Below the pieces are notes generated by a model. It saw nothing but the letters and a program-made list of their open reading frames with translations, did no database searches and had not been told where the DNA came from. From Candidatus Aminicenantota bacterium (lineage in GTDB: Bacteria; Acidobacteriota; Aminicenantia; Aminicenantales; UBA4085), in NCBI GenBank assembly GCA_003141555.1, contig PLMN01000019.1, positions 1 to 64,000 on the forward strand: a stretch of DNA of 64,000 nt, read 5' to 3'. A program made the position numbers and the translations under genes. Of the stretch, positions 10,134-34,210 are shown piece after piece (within the stretch, counting starts at the first letter, position 1; every line of letters starts with the position of its first letter).

Positions 10134-11102
10134 TTATCCGAAAAAGGCTCGGGGCAAGGAAGCCGGATCGAGCCGATCGTAGGTCTGCTCGATTTCCAGA
10201 GCCGCGGCCCGGATCTCGGCCCACAAGGACTCGGGCAGGAGAAGGCTCGTCCGTCCGACCGTATCCTCGAAGAGGTTGTGGGCCAGGTAGGAGGGAGTTT
10301 CATCCCCAAACCAGATCTGAGCTTCCCATGATTTTTCATTGAACGAGACGGTCTCAAACGTCCGGTTCGTCAGGCCGAACCGATCCCCAGGCTCGACAAA
10401 AGCCAGAACGCCGTGGTTCGAGGGCGCGCTCCGGGCCAGGTTCGCGTAAGCGCAAAGGAACCGGCCGGCGAAGGCCAGCGCCCGGATTGAGACCGCATAG
10501 CCGTCCACGCGGGAGTCGACGTGCTCCTGAAGAATCATCGGCCAAGCCGGATCCGGCCGACGCCGGAGCGCTCCGGGTTCGCGCACGATCTCGAAACCCC
10601 GGCCCCCGCGACCCGTCCGCCGTTTGAGGACGAGGGACCCGCATCGTTCCAAGAGGGACCGCGCCGCCGCCTGATGCGCGTTATCGAACGGGACGGTCGC
10701 CGGCATAGGGACGCGGCCCTTGAGAACCCGGTACTGGACCCACTTGTCCTCGAGCCTAAGAACGGGGGGGATGACCGCCGGAAGCAATCCCTCGCCGTCC
10801 ATCCATAGCTTGAAGGCTTTGAGCGACGGCAGAAAGGCGAGCGTATCCAGGTATCCGGCAAACGACTTCCCGTAGCAGGCCCGGGAGATGGCTTCAATGT
10901 CCTCGAAAATTCCCGAGCGCAGGCCCGCGCGGACAAGGAACGTCCGGTCGTATTCCTGGGCACCACCCGGGAGCCCGACATTGACGTCGACGACGAACGG
11001 ACGGAGTCCGGGGCTTATCAGGAAGTCTATGCCCAGGTACATGGTCAGATTGATGGCGTTTGGGGTCCCGGCCGCCGGCCTCGACCCGGCTGAAGGCCAC
11101 AT
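10134..11102 (-). CDS. circularly permuted ATP-grasp-like protein, possibly N-terminally short
   Basis: A 322-residue protein with ATP-grasp motifs in permuted order. The metal- and substrate-binding segment comes first (YLGIDFLISPG, then VVDVNVGLPGGAQEYD, residues ~21-52). The nucleotide-binding Lys/Gly loop follows (LVLKRRTGRGGRGFEIV, ~165-181), then ILQEHVDSRVDGY. This order matches the DUF404/DUF407 CP_ATPgrasp families that join an amine to a carboxylate, often on peptides. Those proteins usually have a further N-terminal region, but here an in-frame stop lies seven codons upstream of the ATG and no Shine-Dalgarno is visible. The gene may therefore be truncated or a shorter family. It ends 32 bp from the convergent OPT gene. 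Confidence 0.6.
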   Translation of the reverse strand: MWPSAGSRPAAGTPNAINLTMYLGIDFLISPGLRPFVVDVNVGLPGGAQEYDRTFLVRAGLRSGIFEDIEAISRACYGKSFAGYLDTLAFLPSLKAFKLWMDGEGLLPAVIPPVLRLEDKWVQYRVLKGRVPMPATVPFDNAHQAAARSLLERCGSLVLKRRTGRGGRGFEIVREPGALRRRPDPAWPMILQEHVDSRVDGYAVSIRALAFAGRFLCAYANLARSAPSNHGVLAFVEPGDRFGLTNRTFETVSFNEKSWEAQIWFGDETPSYLAHNLFEDTVGRTSLLLPESLWAEIRAAALEIEQTYDRLDPASLPRAFFG

Positions 11103-11286
11103 ACGGAACCGGCCCCGATTAGCCTATTGCCCAGAGCCATTTAATCACAGCCGGCGCCCGTCCATCAAGCCGCCCGGACAAAAGGGTTCCAGGCAAACCG
11201 AACGAATGCCCGGGATTTATGTCCGGCGGGGGTGCGGGCCGAAACGCCCGCCCCTGCCCTGGCTTGCGCGGGAGGGCGGGGCCAGA

Positions 11287-11367
11287 GCCCTGCCGCAGCA
11301 CTTGCTCGCGATCGTAGGCGCTCGCAAGTACGGCGGAACTTGATCCCCAAGCCAAGTTTGGGGCCCC
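11287..11367. repeat. double-hairpin dispersed element, copy A
   Basis: An 81-bp sequence about 83% identical (hand alignment) to 33202-33283. Hairpin 1 pairs ACTTGC (11300-11305) with GCAAGT (11324-11329). Hairpin 2 pairs CCCCAAGC (11345-11352) with GTTTGGGG (11356-11363) around a 3-nt loop. Both stems differ from copy B by paired changes. It lies between the minus-strand ATP-grasp gene and the promoter of def. Confidence 0.75.
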
Positions 11368-11375
11368 TGGCGCCG

Positions 11376-11404
11376 TTGAACTCACCCGCCGAATCCGCTA
11401 CAAT
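11376..11404 (+). promoter_or_regulatory. sigma70-type promoter of def-fmt
   Basis: TTGAAC, 17-bp spacer, TACAAT, starting 12 bp after the second hairpin of the repeat. The predicted transcript begins about 12-14 nt before the def ATG, giving a very short leader that still holds GAGGA. Confidence 0.7.
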
Positions 11405-11423: not shown

Positions 11424-11936
11424 ATGGCCCGATTGGAAATCCTAAAAATCGGTCACCCGAGCCTGGCCAAGACGTCCGCCCGCATCGAGGCGATCGACGA
11501 CGAGATCCGCCGCCTGGCCGAGGACATGATCGAGACCATGTACGCCGCGCCGGGCATCGGGCTCTCCGCGCCCCAGGTCAACGTCAACCGGCGGCTGATT
11601 ACGATCGACCTGTCGGTCGGCGAGCAGGCCTCCGACCTCATCGTGATGATCAACCCCGAGATTGTCTTTCGCGAGGGCAAGGTCGTCCGCGAGGAGGGTT
11701 GCCTGTCCGTCCCCGAGATCTACGAAAAGGTCACGCGGCCCCAGAAGGTTCGGGTGAAAGGGCTGGACCTCACGGGCCTGGAGCGGACAATCGAGGCCCA
11801 AGACAGCCTTGCTCGAGCCTTCTGCCACGAAATCGACCACTTGGACGGGAAGCTGTTCGTCGATACGCTCTCTCCCCTCAAGCGAAAGCTGATCCGGAAG
11901 AAATTCAAGAAAAAGGACGAGACGGTCGAGCTCTGA
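11424..11936 (+). CDS. def: peptide deformylase
   Basis: A 170-residue metalloenzyme that removes the N-formyl group from nascent proteins. All three family motifs are present: GIGLSAPQ (Ser where Ala is usual), EEGCLSVP with metal ligand Cys93, and HEIDH with His135, Glu136 and His139. The ATG at 11424 is chosen because GAGGA lies 7 nt upstream and the protein then starts at the usual place (MARLEILKIG). The frame is open further upstream, but that part covers the repeat and promoter. It overlaps fmt in TGATG. Confidence 0.95.
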   Translation: MARLEILKIGHPSLAKTSARIEAIDDEIRRLAEDMIETMYAAPGIGLSAPQVNVNRRLITIDLSVGEQASDLIVMINPEIVFREGKVVREEGCLSVPEIYEKVTRPQKVRVKGLDLTGLERTIEAQDSLARAFCHEIDHLDGKLFVDTLSPLKRKLIRKKFKKKDETVEL

Positions 11937-22833: not shown

Positions 22834-23210
22834 CTATTCTTCCTCGGGCCTGACCCGCCCTTCCTTGACCGCCTCGGCGATGATCTTCTGCTGGAGGTGG
22901 GCCGGGACCTCGTCGTAATGCGAGAACTCCATCATGTATGATCCCCGGCCGCCGGTGATCGAGGTCAGCGTCGACTCAAAATCGAGCATCTCGGACATGG
23001 GGACGACCGCCTTCAGGATGCGCATGTTGCCCTTCTGCTCCGTGCCTTGGACCTTTCCCCGCCGGCCGTTCATGTTGCCCATGATGTCGCCCATGTAGGC
23101 TTCGGGCGTGTAGATCTCGACGTTCATGACCGGCTCGAGAATCGTGGGCTTCGCGGCCGTCATGGCCAGCTTGAAGGCCTTATGGGCCGCGATCTTGAAG
23201 GCGATGTCGT
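22834..23210 (-). pseudogene. displaced 3' end of an EF-G gene (direct-repeat copy 1)
   Basis: These 377 bp match the last 377 bp of the complete EF-G-type gene (25907-26283) with 11 differences that I could count, one of them within the stop codon. Only two change residues (Met to Thr, Pro to Ser in SEMLDFE-TLTS). Homology stops abruptly at 23210, after the codons for DIAFKIAAHK. Beyond that the frame continues 22 codons into AT-rich sequence to an ATG at 23277. The fragment holds only the C-terminal EF-G domains IV-V and cannot work alone. It keeps a good terminator, unlike the complete gene. It may be the old chromosomal end of fusA displaced by an insertion. Confidence 0.85.
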
Positions 23211-25906: not shown

Positions 25907-26283
25907 TTACTCTTCCTCGGGCCTGACCCGCCCTTCCTTGACCGCTTCGGCGATGATCTTCTGCTGGAGGTGGGCCGGAACCTCGTCGTAATGCGAGAAC
26001 TCCATCATGTACGATCCCCGGCCGCCGGTGATCGAGGTCAGCGTCGGCTCGAAATCGAGCATCTCGGACATGGGGACGACCGCCTTCAGGATGCGCATGT
26101 TGCCCTTCTGCTCCATGCCTTGGACCTTTCCTCGCCGGCCGTTCATGTTGCCCATGATGTCGCCCATGTAGGCTTCGGGCGTGTAGATCTCGACGTTCAT
26201 GACGGGCTCGAGGATCGTGGGCTTCGCGGCCGTCATGGCCAGCTTGAAGGCCTTGTGGGCCGCGATCTTGAAGGCGATGTCGG
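25907..26283 (-). repeat. direct-repeat copy 2: 3' end of the complete fusA gene
   Basis: Same orientation and about 97% identical to 22834-23210. The two copies flank 2.7 kb that holds the GH127 gene and the AT-rich fragment. Differences are mostly synonymous. Confidence 0.85.
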
Positions 26284-29864: not shown

Positions 29865-30337
29865 CAAGGCCTCCTTATGACGAAGATGAGGATGAGGAGA
29901 AGCGCGCCGATCGTGATGCAGGAATCGGCCACGTTGAACGTCGGGAAATAGGCGCGCCGGACGTGGAATTCCATGAAATCGACGACGTAGCCTCGGCCGA
30001 TCCGGTCGATGAAGTTCCCCAGGGCCCCGGCCATGATGAGAGCCAGGGAGACCTTCATTCCCATCTGGGAGGCCGGCGTCCGGAAGAAATAGACCACGAC
30101 CATGACCAGGGCGAAGAGGGAGGCGGCGGCCAGGAAGATGGTCACGATCGGGCTGCCCGACTGGGAGAAGGTGCCGAAGATGGCCCCCCGGTTATGGATA
30201 TGGGAGATGGAGAAGAACCCCGGGATGACGCTCACATTCCCGTAGAACGGGATCAGCTTGACGACCACGGCCTTTGCGGCTTGATCCAGGGCGACCAGCC
30301 CGGCGATGAGACCGAGGAACGGGAGATGGCGCTTCAT
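29864..30337 (-). CDS. lspA: lipoprotein signal peptidase (signal peptidase II)
   Basis: A 157-residue inner-membrane aspartic protease with four hydrophobic segments. Both catalytic regions are seen: GNFIDRIGRGYVVDFMEF and FNVADSCITIG, each with an Asp. The start ATG at 30337 overlaps the ileS stop (ATGA). The longer open frame upstream is out-of-frame ileS sequence. The pair ileS-lspA is a common bacterial arrangement. Confidence 0.95.
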   Translation of the reverse strand: MKRHLPFLGLIAGLVALDQAAKAVVVKLIPFYGNVSVIPGFFSISHIHNRGAIFGTFSQSGSPIVTIFLAAASLFALVMVVVYFFRTPASQMGMKVSLALIMAGALGNFIDRIGRGYVVDFMEFHVRRAYFPTFNVADSCITIGALLLILIFVIRRP

Positions 30338-33114
30338 CGGCCGAGATCCCGGACGACCGCCTCGCAGCGCGCGCAGAGGTTCGGATGATCCACGCTCGTC
30401 CCCACGTGGGTCGAATAGTTCCAGCAGCGGACGCACTTGCCCCCGGGAGCTTTCGCCACCGCGATGCCGACGCCCTCACCCTCCCCGTCGGCCAGGACGA
30501 CGGCCGAGACGATGAACAGGGACGCCAGGCCGGCCCGGTGCTTGTCCAGGAGAGGCCGGTCCGCCGGCGGCACGCGGAGCGTGACCTGGGCCTCGAGCGA
30601 ATTGCCTATGGTTTTCCGTTCGCGCGCGCTTTCAAGCTCCTTGAGGACGCGTTCCCGGAGGGCGATCAGGGCCCGCCATTCGGACTTTTCCGCCTCGCCG
30701 AGGATGACGTCTCCGCCGATCGCCGGGAAGGCCTCGAGATGGACGGACTGCTCCTTGCCCCGGAAAGCGGGCATGACCTCCCACGCCTCCTCCGCGGTGA
30801 AGGGCAGGATGGGCGCCATCAGCCGGAGCGTGTCCTTCAGGATCCGGAACATCGCCGTCTGCCCCGACCGCCGGAGCCGCGACGCCTTTCCGGAGCAGTA
30901 CATCCGGTCCTTCAGGATGTCGAGATAAAAGGCGCTCAAATCCACGGTGAAGAAATTGTAGAGGGCGTGGAAGACGGTGTGGTATTCGAACTCCTCGTAG
31001 CCGCGGAGAACCTTGGCTCCGACCTCGGCGGACGCGGCGAGCGCCCAGCGGTCCAGGCCGTCCATCTCCGAAGCCGGCACGGAGTCCCGGTCGGGATTGA
31101 AATCGGAGAGGTTCCCGAGGAGGAAGCGCCAGGTGTTGCGGATTTTGCGATAAGCCTCCACCACCCGCTGGAGGATCTCGTCGCCGAACGGCGCATCCTC
31201 CTTGTAGTTCAGCATGGCGGTCCAGAGCCTGAGGATCTCGGCCCCGTTCTGGGCGATGATGGTCCGGGGCTCGATGACGTTCCCCGCCGACTTGGACATC
31301 GCCCGGCCCTTGGCGTCGAGGATGAAGCCGTGGGTGATGCAGGTCCGATAAGGCGAGGCGCCCTTGGCCTCGACGCCGATCACGATCGAGCTGTTGAACC
31401 AGCCGCGGTGCTGGTCGTGGCCCTCGATGTAGACGTCGGCCGGCCAGGGAAGGTCGGGCCGGTGGCCCAGGATGCCGTGGCTGGCCCCGGACTCGAACCA
31501 GACGTCGAGGATGTTGTGCTCCTTCTCGAACGCCGTTCCGCCGCATTTCGGGCAGCGGGTCCCGGAGGGCAGGAGGTCTTCCGCTCCGCGGACGAACCAG
31601 GCGTTCGAGCCCTCGGCGGCGAAGATGTCCGCGACGTGGAGCGTCGTCGCTTCGTTAGCCAGGATTTCGCCGCAGGCCCGGCAGGCGAAGGCGGGGATGG
31701 GCACGCCCCAGCTGCGCTGGCGCGAGATGCACCAGTCGGGCCGGCTCTCCATCATCCCCGCCATCCGCTCTTCTCCCCAGGCGGGGATCCAGCGCACGCG
31801 CCGGATCTCGTCGAGCGTCCTCTGCCGGAGCCCGCCCTCGTCCATGGAGATGAACCACTGGGCCGTGGCCCGGAAAATGACCGGGTTCTTGCAGCGCCAG
31901 CAATGCGGATAGGAATGGGAGATCTCCCCTTCCTCGAGGAGCGCGCCGTCGCGCCGCATGTCGTCGTTGATCAGGCGGTTGGCCTTGAAGACGCTCATCC
32001 CGGCGTAGCGGGCCACATCCGGGGTGAACCGGCCCTCGTCGTCCACCGGGGCATAGATGTCCAGCCCATAGGCCCGCCCGGTCTGGTAGTCCTCCAATCC
32101 GTGCCCCGGGGCCGTATGGACGCAACCCGTGCCGTCGTCGAGAGTCACATAGTCGGCCAGGACGAACAGCGAGTCGCGGTCGATCCACGGATGGCGGGCT
32201 TTCAGCCCCTCGAGGTCGCGGCCGAGGATGGTCGCCAGGATCTTGGGATCCCGGATCCCCAGCATCCCGGCGATCTTGGGCACCAGCGTCTTGGCGACGA
32301 TGTAAACGTCCTCGCCGCTTTCGAAGGCGGCGTATTCGTGTTCCGGATGGAAGGCGATCGCCAGGTTGGCCGGCAGCGTCCAGGGGGTCGTCGTCCAGAT
32401 GATGACCGAAGCGCGGCGGCCGCGAAGCTCCGGGATCTTCGCCCCGAGGTCCGTCGCCATCGGGAATTTGACGTAGATCGAGGGCGACGTCTTGTCCTTG
32501 TAGATGATCTCGGCTTCGGCCAGGGCCGTCCGGCAGGTCGGGCACCAATGAACCGGGCGCTTGCCCTTGAAAACGTTGCCCGCGGCGAAGAACGCGGCGA
32601 GATGGCGCAGGACCCCGGCTTCGTAGCCGGGGGCCATGGTCAGGTACGGATCGTCCCATTCCCCGAAGACGCCGAGCCGGATGAAGTCCGACCGCTGGAT
32701 GTCGACGTATTTCAGGGCGTAGGCCCGGCACTCCTCGCGGATCTCGATGATCGACATGTCCTTCTTCCGGTCGCCGAGGAGCTTGTCGACGTGAATCTCG
32801 ATGGGCAGCCCGTGGCAGTCCCAGCCGGGGACGTAGGGCGCGAGGCGCCCCTGCATGGTCCGGGACTTGACGATGAAGTCCTTGAGGATCTTGTTCATGG
32901 CCGTGCCCAGGTGGATGGTCCCGTTGGCGTAGGGCGGGCCGTCGTGGAGGACGAACGTCGGGTCGGCGGCGTGCTTGCGGAGGATTCTCCCGTACAGGCC
33001 GGTCTCCTTCCACTTTTTGAGAAGCTCGGGCTCCTTCTGGGTCAGCTTTGCCTTCATGGCGAAGGCGGTCTGAGGCAAGTTGAGCGTACTTTTTACGTCG
33101 AAGGGTTCGGCCAT
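30334..33114 (-). CDS. ileS: isoleucyl-tRNA synthetase
   Basis: A 926-residue class Ia synthetase. The ATP motifs are DGPPYANGTIHLGT (HIGH equivalent, with Thr in the last place) and GRAMSKSAGN (KMSKS equivalent). The editing CP1 domain contains the threonine-rich WTTTPWTLPAN. A C-terminal zinc finger (CVRCWNYS and CARCEAVV) marks the bacterial type 1 form. Length is normal. GGAG precedes the ATG. It is the first gene of ileS-lspA-lgt-rluD. No T-box is visible in the 229-bp upstream region. Confidence 0.96.
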   Translation of the reverse strand: MAEPFDVKSTLNLPQTAFAMKAKLTQKEPELLKKWKETGLYGRILRKHAADPTFVLHDGPPYANGTIHLGTAMNKILKDFIVKSRTMQGRLAPYVPGWDCHGLPIEIHVDKLLGDRKKDMSIIEIREECRAYALKYVDIQRSDFIRLGVFGEWDDPYLTMAPGYEAGVLRHLAAFFAAGNVFKGKRPVHWCPTCRTALAEAEIIYKDKTSPSIYVKFPMATDLGAKIPELRGRRASVIIWTTTPWTLPANLAIAFHPEHEYAAFESGEDVYIVAKTLVPKIAGMLGIRDPKILATILGRDLEGLKARHPWIDRDSLFVLADYVTLDDGTGCVHTAPGHGLEDYQTGRAYGLDIYAPVDDEGRFTPDVARYAGMSVFKANRLINDDMRRDGALLEEGEISHSYPHCWRCKNPVIFRATAQWFISMDEGGLRQRTLDEIRRVRWIPAWGEERMAGMMESRPDWCISRQRSWGVPIPAFACRACGEILANEATTLHVADIFAAEGSNAWFVRGAEDLLPSGTRCPKCGGTAFEKEHNILDVWFESGASHGILGHRPDLPWPADVYIEGHDQHRGWFNSSIVIGVEAKGASPYRTCITHGFILDAKGRAMSKSAGNVIEPRTIIAQNGAEILRLWTAMLNYKEDAPFGDEILQRVVEAYRKIRNTWRFLLGNLSDFNPDRDSVPASEMDGLDRWALAASAEVGAKVLRGYEEFEYHTVFHALYNFFTVDLSAFYLDILKDRMYCSGKASRLRRSGQTAMFRILKDTLRLMAPILPFTAEEAWEVMPAFRGKEQSVHLEAFPAIGGDVILGEAEKSEWRALIALRERVLKELESARERKTIGNSLEAQVTLRVPPADRPLLDKHRAGLASLFIVSAVVLADGEGEGVGIAVAKAPGGKCVRCWNYSTHVGTSVDHPNLCARCEAVVRDLGR

Positions 33115-33161: not shown

Positions 33162-33189
33162 ATTTTATCCCTCCGGCCCGAAAAGTCAA
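33162..33189 (-). promoter_or_regulatory. candidate promoter of ileS
   Basis: On the minus strand TTGACT (33189-33184), 16-bp spacer, TAAAAT (33167-33162). A second TATAAT (33152-33147) lies closer to the gene without a -35 match. Confidence 0.5.
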
Positions 33190-33201
33190 CCGAGGCGCGA
33201 G

Positions 33202-33283
33202 GCCCTGCCGGGCGCACTCGCTCGCGATCTTAGGCGCGAGCGAGTACGACGGAACCGGATCCCCAGGCAAAGCCTGGGGCCCC
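33202..33283. repeat. double-hairpin dispersed element, copy B
   Basis: Same orientation as copy A at 11287-11367. Hairpin 1 is a perfect 11-bp stem (33216-33226 with 33235-33245, 8-nt loop). Hairpin 2 is a perfect 8-bp stem (33261-33268 with 33272-33279, loop AAA). It lies between the divergent ileS and outer-membrane-barrel promoters. Confidence 0.8.
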
Positions 33284-33295
33284 CCTCCCGTCGCC

Positions 33296-33324
33296 TTGAT
33301 TCCGGGAACCGCCTCGCCGATAAT
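33296..33324 (+). promoter_or_regulatory. promoter of the outer-membrane-barrel gene
   Basis: TTGATT, 17-bp spacer, GATAAT, 16 bp after hairpin 2 of the repeat and about 20 bp before the ATG. The geometry parallels the def promoter after copy A. Confidence 0.65.
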
Positions 33325-33343: not shown

Positions 33344-34210
33344 ATGAGGAAAGACGCCGGAGCCCTGGTATTCGCTGCCGCCCTAGCCGCGGCGGCGCTC
33401 GTCCCGTCCGCCTCGGCCGCCGTGTCCCTCAAGCTCAAGGGCGGCGGCTTTTACGCCGCGGCCTCGGAATTCAACGCCGGGCTACAGGGCGTGTGCGATC
33501 TCGCCGTGGCTGCGGCTTCCTATACAGGCGATTACCGCCCCCTTCACTTCGGAACCCAAATCGGCGCGGAGATCGTCGTGGATCTCGGAGGCGGATTCGG
33601 ACTCGGGCTCGGCGTCGACTTGCAGCGCGCGAGCCGGGAGAGCGCTCTCGAGTACGCCTCGCCTCTTTTTTCGGAATCCGATACGATCGCGCCGCGCATC
33701 ACGGCCGTTCCGCTCGCCCTCAATCTCCACCGCGAATGGCGGATCGGCCGGTCGTTTTCGTTCGACGCCTATGCCGGGATCGGATGCACCTGGGCCACGT
33801 TCCATCAGGAATATCGGACGGTTTCCGATTTCTTCGACTACCGGCAGACGGACTCGTTCACGGCCCATAAGGCGGCGTTCGGCGGGCAGGCCGGCGTCGC
33901 CCTGGAATTCGAGATCGCCCGCGCTGTGGGGCTGTTCGTCCAAGCCGAAGGCCGGCTGGCGGCCTTGACCGAACTCCGCGGCGATAGGACCATCTCGGGA
34001 TCTTATTTCCTGGGCCCCGTGCCGGAGGAGACCAGCCCGGCCTATCTTTGGGCCTATACGCTGACCGTATCGGCCAGAGCGTTTCCCCAGCTGGCCGTGT
34101 CCCTCGCGGCGCCGACGGCGGGGACCGGAGAGATGATCGACAACGTCCACAAGGCCCGCCTCGATCTGAGCGGGGCTTCGCTTTCGGCGGGGATCCGCAT
34201 CCGGCTGTGA
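33344..34210 (+). CDS. outer-membrane beta-barrel protein (porin-like), candidate
   Basis: A 288-residue protein with a clear signal peptide (LVFAAALAAAALVPSASAA, cleavage near residue 27). Alternating amphipathic strands follow, starting VSLKLKGGGFYAAASEFNAG, with several Tyr/Phe-rich strands, and the protein ends in a strand (GASLSAGIRIRL). This is the pattern of small 8-12-strand outer-membrane barrels such as the OmpW/PorT-like groups, but no family signature is certain. The ATG at 33344 fits GGAGAGG 7 nt upstream and the signal peptide; in-frame starts upstream lie in the promoter. Confidence 0.65.
   Translation: MRKDAGALVFAAALAAAALVPSASAAVSLKLKGGGFYAAASEFNAGLQGVCDLAVAAASYTGDYRPLHFGTQIGAEIVVDLGGGFGLGLGVDLQRASRESALEYASPLFSESDTIAPRITAVPLALNLHREWRIGRSFSFDAYAGIGCTWATFHQEYRTVSDFFDYRQTDSFTAHKAAFGGQAGVALEFEIARAVGLFVQAEGRLAALTELRGDRTISGSYFLGPVPEETSPAYLWAYTLTVSARAFPQLAVSLAAPTAGTGEMIDNVHKARLDLSGASLSAGIRIRL

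Follow-up and report, generated by a model that had tools for sequence, protein, structure and literature searches.

Why do two double-hairpin sequences in one stretch of an Aminicenantota genome each stand directly before a promoter? The window, meaning the whole stretch of DNA analyzed here, covers 64,000 nucleotides of contig PLMN01000019.1 (assembly GCA_003141555.1). It contains copy A, upstream of a peptide deformylase gene, and copy B, between ileS and a gene for a beta-barrel membrane protein. The original prediction described a dispersed structured element of regulatory or mobile nature. We surveyed the own genome (3.79 Mb in 33 contigs, of which the window is one) and its relatives. 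The sequence is very probably a small, non-autonomous, mobile palindromic element of Aminicenantes, similar to MITEs or REPs, which its target places beside promoters.

Copies A and B

Both double-hairpin copies were found where they had been predicted (Table 1). The parts common to A and B are hairpin 1 (11 bp), an outer stem of 5 to 6 bp with the sequence GGCGG/CCGCC, and hairpin 2 (7 to 8 bp), which lies inside the outer stem. The copies had been described as sharing about 81 bp with two stem-loops. They do contain the same hairpins and stems, but they have no 11-mer in common, and BLAST therefore gives no direct match between them. A third copy (C19:62234) is matched by each of them (E values of 9e-17 for A and 4e-18 for B). 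Both hairpins are present in each copy, but hairpin 1 of copy A has two unpaired positions. By folding alone, copy A is weak (z = -1.2) and copy B is strong (z = -5.8). Hairpin 1 of copy A folds weakly alone because TC is opposed to TC and stays unpaired.

The extra module listed near copy A has a different position in other own-genome copies, where it lies inside the element, 3' of hairpin 2. Copy B is flanked on both sides by -35-like boxes, GTCAA facing outward to ileS and TTGATT at the other end. A related genome (G009) contains an element (L116) at the corresponding place upstream of its own ileS. Both A and B lie between genes and are old members of a mobile palindromic family. The window also contains two 300-nt direct repeats (22835-23134 and 25908-26207). 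They are 97% identical and 3073 nt apart, and the second lies within long ORFs.

Table 1. Features of the window at copies A and B
Feature	Position	Strand	Details
Copy A core	11295..11377	+	Covariance model positions 1-83; 88.9 bits, E 1.2e-15; model seed sequence
Copy A hairpin 1	11300..11329	+	Arms 11300-11310 / 11319-11329; internal TC.TC mismatch
Copy A outer stem	11332..11374	+	11332-11336 pairs with 11370-11374; encloses hairpin 2 (11345-11351 / 11357-11363)
Extra hairpin module GGCGGGGGTGCGGGCCGAAACGCCCGCCCCTGCC near copy A	11225..11258	+	Same module in L069, L073, L078, L087
Deformylase promoter TTGAAC-17-TACAAT	11376..11404	+	TTGA doubles as the 3' target of copy A
Peptide deformylase gene, downstream of copy A	11424..11936	+	PF01327, E 2e-51
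ATP-grasp-like gene, other side of copy A	10134..11102	-	PF02655, E 3e-6
Copy B	33185..33295	+	Model match 33211-33295; 90.4 bits, E 5.5e-16; model seed sequence
Copy B 5' end GTCAA	33185-33189	+	Placed by sequence
Copy B hairpin 1	33216..33245	+	Arms 33216-33226 / 33235-33245
Copy B outer stem	33247..33293	+	33247-33252 pairs with 33288-33293; encloses hairpin 2 (33261-33268 / 33272-33279)
Promoter-like TTGATT-17-GATAAT, directly 3' of copy B	33296..33324	+	
Beta-barrel membrane protein gene, downstream of copy B	33344..34210	+	PF13505, E 8.5e-6, under curated cut-off
ileS, divergent, upstream of copy B	30334..33114	-	PF00133

Covariation and own-genome copies

The covariance model was built from 18 own-genome copies. 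It contained 83 positions with 23 pairs. The seed copies match it by construction; copies in other genomes do not. In the own genome, 27 copies were retrieved at E <= 1e-6. Among the 18 seed copies, standard pairs made up 93% of pair cells, and two-sided changes were present at 15 of the 23 pairs. None of 500 shuffles equaled this count, and the signal was lost on sliding. The claim that paired changes keep the stems is borne out.

Four own-genome copies (L077, L080, L081, and L084) form a separate subfamily with TTATACGCGGTCAAGTACAGGCGT and a flanking repeat of its own (GTGCCGACGGCCCTC, CCGACAGGACCCGC). As a rule, this subfamily lies away from promoters. One copy was present at an orthologous site in both species of the genus (L065 in G000 and L139 in G001), with 82% identity over 3 kb.

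Distribution among relatives

Covariance matches within the family numbered about 27 in G001, 86 in G007, at least 150 in G008, 40 in G009, and 2 each in G010 and G011. No covariance match was found in five genomes of the same family from two genera (g2 and g3). When the class was sampled evenly, matches at E <= 1e-6 were present in 9 of 119 genomes, including two from another family (f2) and one from a third family (f6). The exact 18-nt 5' end TCAAGGGACGAGCCTTCG was found 141 times in G008, 65 times in G007, 22 times in G001, and twice in the own genome; the reversed control pattern had 0 occurrences in the same genomes. Nine identical full-length copies of 103 nt were present among the copies examined. 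The same repeat pattern appears in two public Candidatus Aminicenantes MAG records.

The patchiness and the outbreak of near-identical copies argue for a mobile element. The original prediction of a dispersed structured mobile element is supported by the copy number, the patchy occurrence, and the empty sites described below. The further copies that it called for were recovered in the own genome and in relatives, with pairing preserved.

The viral contigs and plasmids searched contained no match to the element. Rfam returned 0 families at the gathering score in the window. The element has no name in the libraries and literature searched, in agreement with the earlier statement that it matched no known family, and a literature search yielded nothing on REPs in Aminicenantes.

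Boundaries, lengths, and target

In G007 and G008, the full element extends from GTCAAGGG to CCGCCG. Its order is 5' GTCAAGGG, a hairpin, hairpin 1, GGCGG, hairpin 2, CCGCC, and G 3'. Most lengths fell on a ladder with steps of 39 nt (13 codons), and the clean classes were 64, 103, 142, and 181 nt. Off-ladder lengths were also present (101, 102, and others), some of them because the loop of hairpin 2 contains a further 37-nt hairpin module, so that one hairpin is nested within another. At 64 to 181 nt, the element contains no coding capacity for a transposase of its own.

The 3' flank was T-S-G-A (S is C or G), with 1.57, 0.39, 1.21, and 0.98 bits over 87 copies. The 5' flank of 87 copies had no preference (at most 0.11 bits). 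Six sites filled in G008 are empty in its congener G007. They are in the PhzF gene, in the PIN_2 gene, and at L278, L275, L165, and L270. The net gain at filled sites was 102 nt for 103-nt elements and 63 nt for 64-nt elements, and no target-site duplication was found at the six empty sites. The empty target was TCGA or TTGA at L278, L275, and L165; at the PIN site it was TGGG. Junctions were less clear for PhzF and L270 than for the others. At three readable sites, the base 5' of the target was C or T when empty and G when filled, which suggests the replacement of a single base at the 5' junction. The base preceding TCAAGGG was G in 123 of 129 copies. Insertion is precise, lies directly 5' of T-S-G-A, and leaves no target-site duplication.

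Promoters beside the element

An order of element and then promoter had been predicted. The promoters are good by sequence and start at the 3' end of the element, but this order is explained by the target and not by a regulatory design. The element adjoins promoters because its target is TNGA and -35 boxes contain TTGA.

We considered that the end of the element supplies TTGA as an outward -35 box and creates promoters, and that copies are kept for that; this is unlikely. A -10 box at a spacer of 16 to 18 was present in 12 of the 15 own copies with a TTGN 3' end (27 own copies in total), compared with 5 of 150 control windows (P = 5e-12), and the GTCAA at the 5' end reads outward as TTGAC, which at copy B could serve the ileS side. 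Both observations fit such a carrier. Against it, recent copies in G007 and G008 had no significant -10 enrichment (7 of 87 versus 32 of 870 controls, P = 0.08), and TSGA belongs to the target and is already in empty sites. The deformylase promoter of copy A is also present without the element in three relatives. It reads TTGAA-17/18-TACAAT in G011 and TTGACC-17-TAAAAT in G099, and it has a weaker -35 in G010. In G001, this locus contains only a remnant of hairpin 2, before TTGAAG. The empty sites and element-free promoters indicate that TTGA was there first, and the element was rejected as a -35 donor. Because the promoter is element-free in relatives, we infer that it came first and that the element then entered at its TTGA with the -35 intact.

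An insertion just upstream of a promoter would leave the promoter intact and may tend to survive, since TTGA serves at once as a permitted target and as the -35 core; the target is observed, and the selective survival is our interpretation. Target preference alone can put a repeat beside promoters and mimic a regulatory element.

Copies inside protein genes

By a codon-usage test, 14 of 82 copies had coding flanks on the same strand. Eleven were in frame and open, and three were out of frame. At least one of these three (L165) sits just before a start codon. Together, codon usage and Pfam domains place at least 17 copies in frame inside genes, out of about 90 examined in G007 and G008. These counts are minimal because the codon-usage test misses some copies (PhzF and PIN).

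In-gene copies lie within PhzF, PIN_2, GT9, MacB/FtsX, sulfatase-TPR, and GH28 domains. The NAD-dependent DNA ligase (L257) contains 61 added residues in its adenylation domain. More copies were found in radical SAM, GH94, 3-keto-disaccharide hydrolase, and ABC transporter genes. G001 contains a copy in a LUD-domain gene, and a fen MAG contains one in an adenosine deaminase gene (L118). In-frame copies persist: G008 and G011, from two genera, both have a glucoamylase/GH94-type gene in which residues derived from the element occupy one and the same site.

The common forms add whole codons (21, 34, 47, and 60). A frame-keeping length was found in 17 of 17 in-gene copies and 50 of 74 others (P = 0.005), in a test that is not selection-free, as part of the 17 were recognized through their open frame. 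The consensus is open in 5 of 6 frames. Frame openness beyond composition was not supported, as 14% of shuffles reach 5 of 6 open frames. The difference from own-genome copies still stands, with 2.9 versus 5.2 open frames over the shared core. In-gene copies may survive because the common forms add whole codons and are open in most frames; the in-frame copies are observed, and selection on them is our interpretation.

Host function, other transposition, and RNA

The element may instead be a domesticated DNA element, such as a protein binding site or a control of nucleoid or supercoiling, as proposed for REPs. The hairpin is kept by compensatory changes, and the site upstream of ileS is occupied in two genera. 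The persistence of copy B by ileS and of the GH94-type element in two genera could also mean function. However, most genomes of the class are without the element, as are genera g2 and g3 within the family, and domestication seems improbable. A host function is not needed to account for the data.

A MITE of the classical DDE type, which would have terminal inverted repeats and duplicate its target, is very unlikely. The short outward GTCAA and TNGA ends and the size of 64 to 181 nt would suit it. The inverted repeats are internal, however, the target preference is one-sided, and the empty sites without duplication contradict it unless duplications were of 1 nt.

A structured cis-regulatory or small RNA, whose plus-strand transcript would fold and act on the neighbor gene, has in its favor the two-sided changes and the promoter that follows both window copies, but it is the least probable reading and was rejected on wobble symmetry, position, and Rfam. 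The original prediction took a G-T pair as a hint of plus-strand transcription. Over two alignments of distinct rows from own and related copies, there were 21 plus-strand G.T wobbles and 26 A.C wobbles (G.T on the minus strand), and the hint does not hold. Hairpin 1 of the own-genome copies has no G.U pair. Because its position is 5' of the -35 box, the element is not part of the downstream gene's transcript. The neighboring genes are unrelated, and in-gene copies occur on either strand. The regulatory reading by plus-strand RNA was therefore abandoned. The lack of strand polarity points to hairpins or palindromes in DNA, and not to a single RNA strand, as what is selected or copied. Replication-strand bias by local GC skew was not consistent (t = -2.2 in G007 and t = -0.2 in G008).

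Mode of movement

The mobile element is a chain of hairpin modules that inserts directly 5' of T-S-G-A. It may move via an enzyme supplied in trans that recognizes single-strand DNA hairpins, like the IS200/IS605 or REP transposases. By analogy with these systems, single-strand recognition is our tentative choice as the most likely mode of movement. No mobilizing enzyme was found in these genomes, and their Y1 transposase genes are flanked by other repeats. Element matches were present at 0 of 22 Y1_Tnp loci in 10 genomes (2 own and 20 in relatives). A REP mobilized by RAYT was rejected on these grounds.

The own genome contains two RAYT-like Y1 transposase genes (L061:1132-2060 and L062:1295-2186) between inverted repeats of their own (GGAGACACAATACCTATTTCCC and AAATCGGTGACAGTAACCTGATTTCCG). 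Several Y1 genes in relatives are flanked by similar but different inverted-repeat pairs. An IS200-like gene of 150 aa (L120, L121, and L119) was found in G008, in G005, and at a contig edge in G003, and CCCCGCGGCAAGCCGCGGGGCAT stands as a direct repeat at its two ends. The shape of its hairpin is like that of hairpin 2 of the element. Among the IS elements examined, the hairpins of this gene in G008, G003, and G005 differ from those of the element. Repeats of GTCATTCCCGCGAAAGCGGGAATCCAG in the flanks of G008 element copies (L163 and L164) resemble CGTC-tagged REPs.

Significance

The best-known peptide-adding palindromic elements are those of Rickettsia; a 2024 review considers in-gene palindromic inserts outside Rickettsia conceivable (PMC10969869). 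The Aminicenantes family, from a distant phylum, is the second case that is well resolved. It offers empty sites, an exact target, a copy-number outbreak, and graded insert sizes, so the tolerance of proteins for in-frame inserts and the mode of movement are testable. It is possible, though we would not presume it, that this is a protein-invading element outside Rickettsiales that evolves in nested 13-codon modules. Even the usually essential DNA ligase would then tolerate it, and the enzyme that moves it, with T-S-G-A as target, would be one not yet described.

Comparison with known systems

(a) IS200/IS605. Single-strand recognition is known from IS200/IS605 and REP systems (PMC8266576). The element shares subterminal hairpins, a short one-sided target, and the lack of target duplication with IS200/IS605 and their non-autonomous derivatives. 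It differs in that no transposase with matching ends was found among the IS elements examined. One target base appears to be replaced, which plain IS200/IS605 insertion does not predict.

(b) REP/BIME with RAYT (TnpA-REP). REPs inside genes, DNA ligase among them, are known from several phyla (PMC3733652). The element also has high-copy hairpin units, mosaics, and in-gene copies including DNA ligase. It is longer, with several hairpins, and the RAYT genes here are flanked by other repeats. The terminal GTAG/CGTC tag is absent from the hairpin foot, where the ends are GTCAAGGG and CCGCCG. The one place where GTAG occurs is the loop of hairpin 1 in some own copies, and CGT+C can arise where CCGCCG joins a TCGA target.

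(c) ERIC, Correia/NEMIS, YPAL, and other MITEs. These are likewise small non-autonomous palindromic repeats, and some bacterial MITEs have open frames fused in genes (PMC2229807). Correia, ERIC, RUP, and YPAL are listed with target duplications, unlike the element; the sequence comparison comprised the Rfam and plasmid searches. The element is dispersed, inserts precisely with empty sites, and has no transposase of its own, and it is a MITE in the wide sense.

(d) RPE and WPE. The palindromic elements of Rickettsia and Wolbachia lie in frame inside genes (PMC10969869, PMC2229807). Compared by description, the Aminicenantes element differs in its phylum, its GC-rich sequence, its chain of separate hairpins in 39-nt steps, and its one-sided TSGA target. 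Like them, it is palindromic and dispersed, of about 100 to 150 bp, with many in-frame copies in unrelated protein genes (PMC10969869, PMC2229807).
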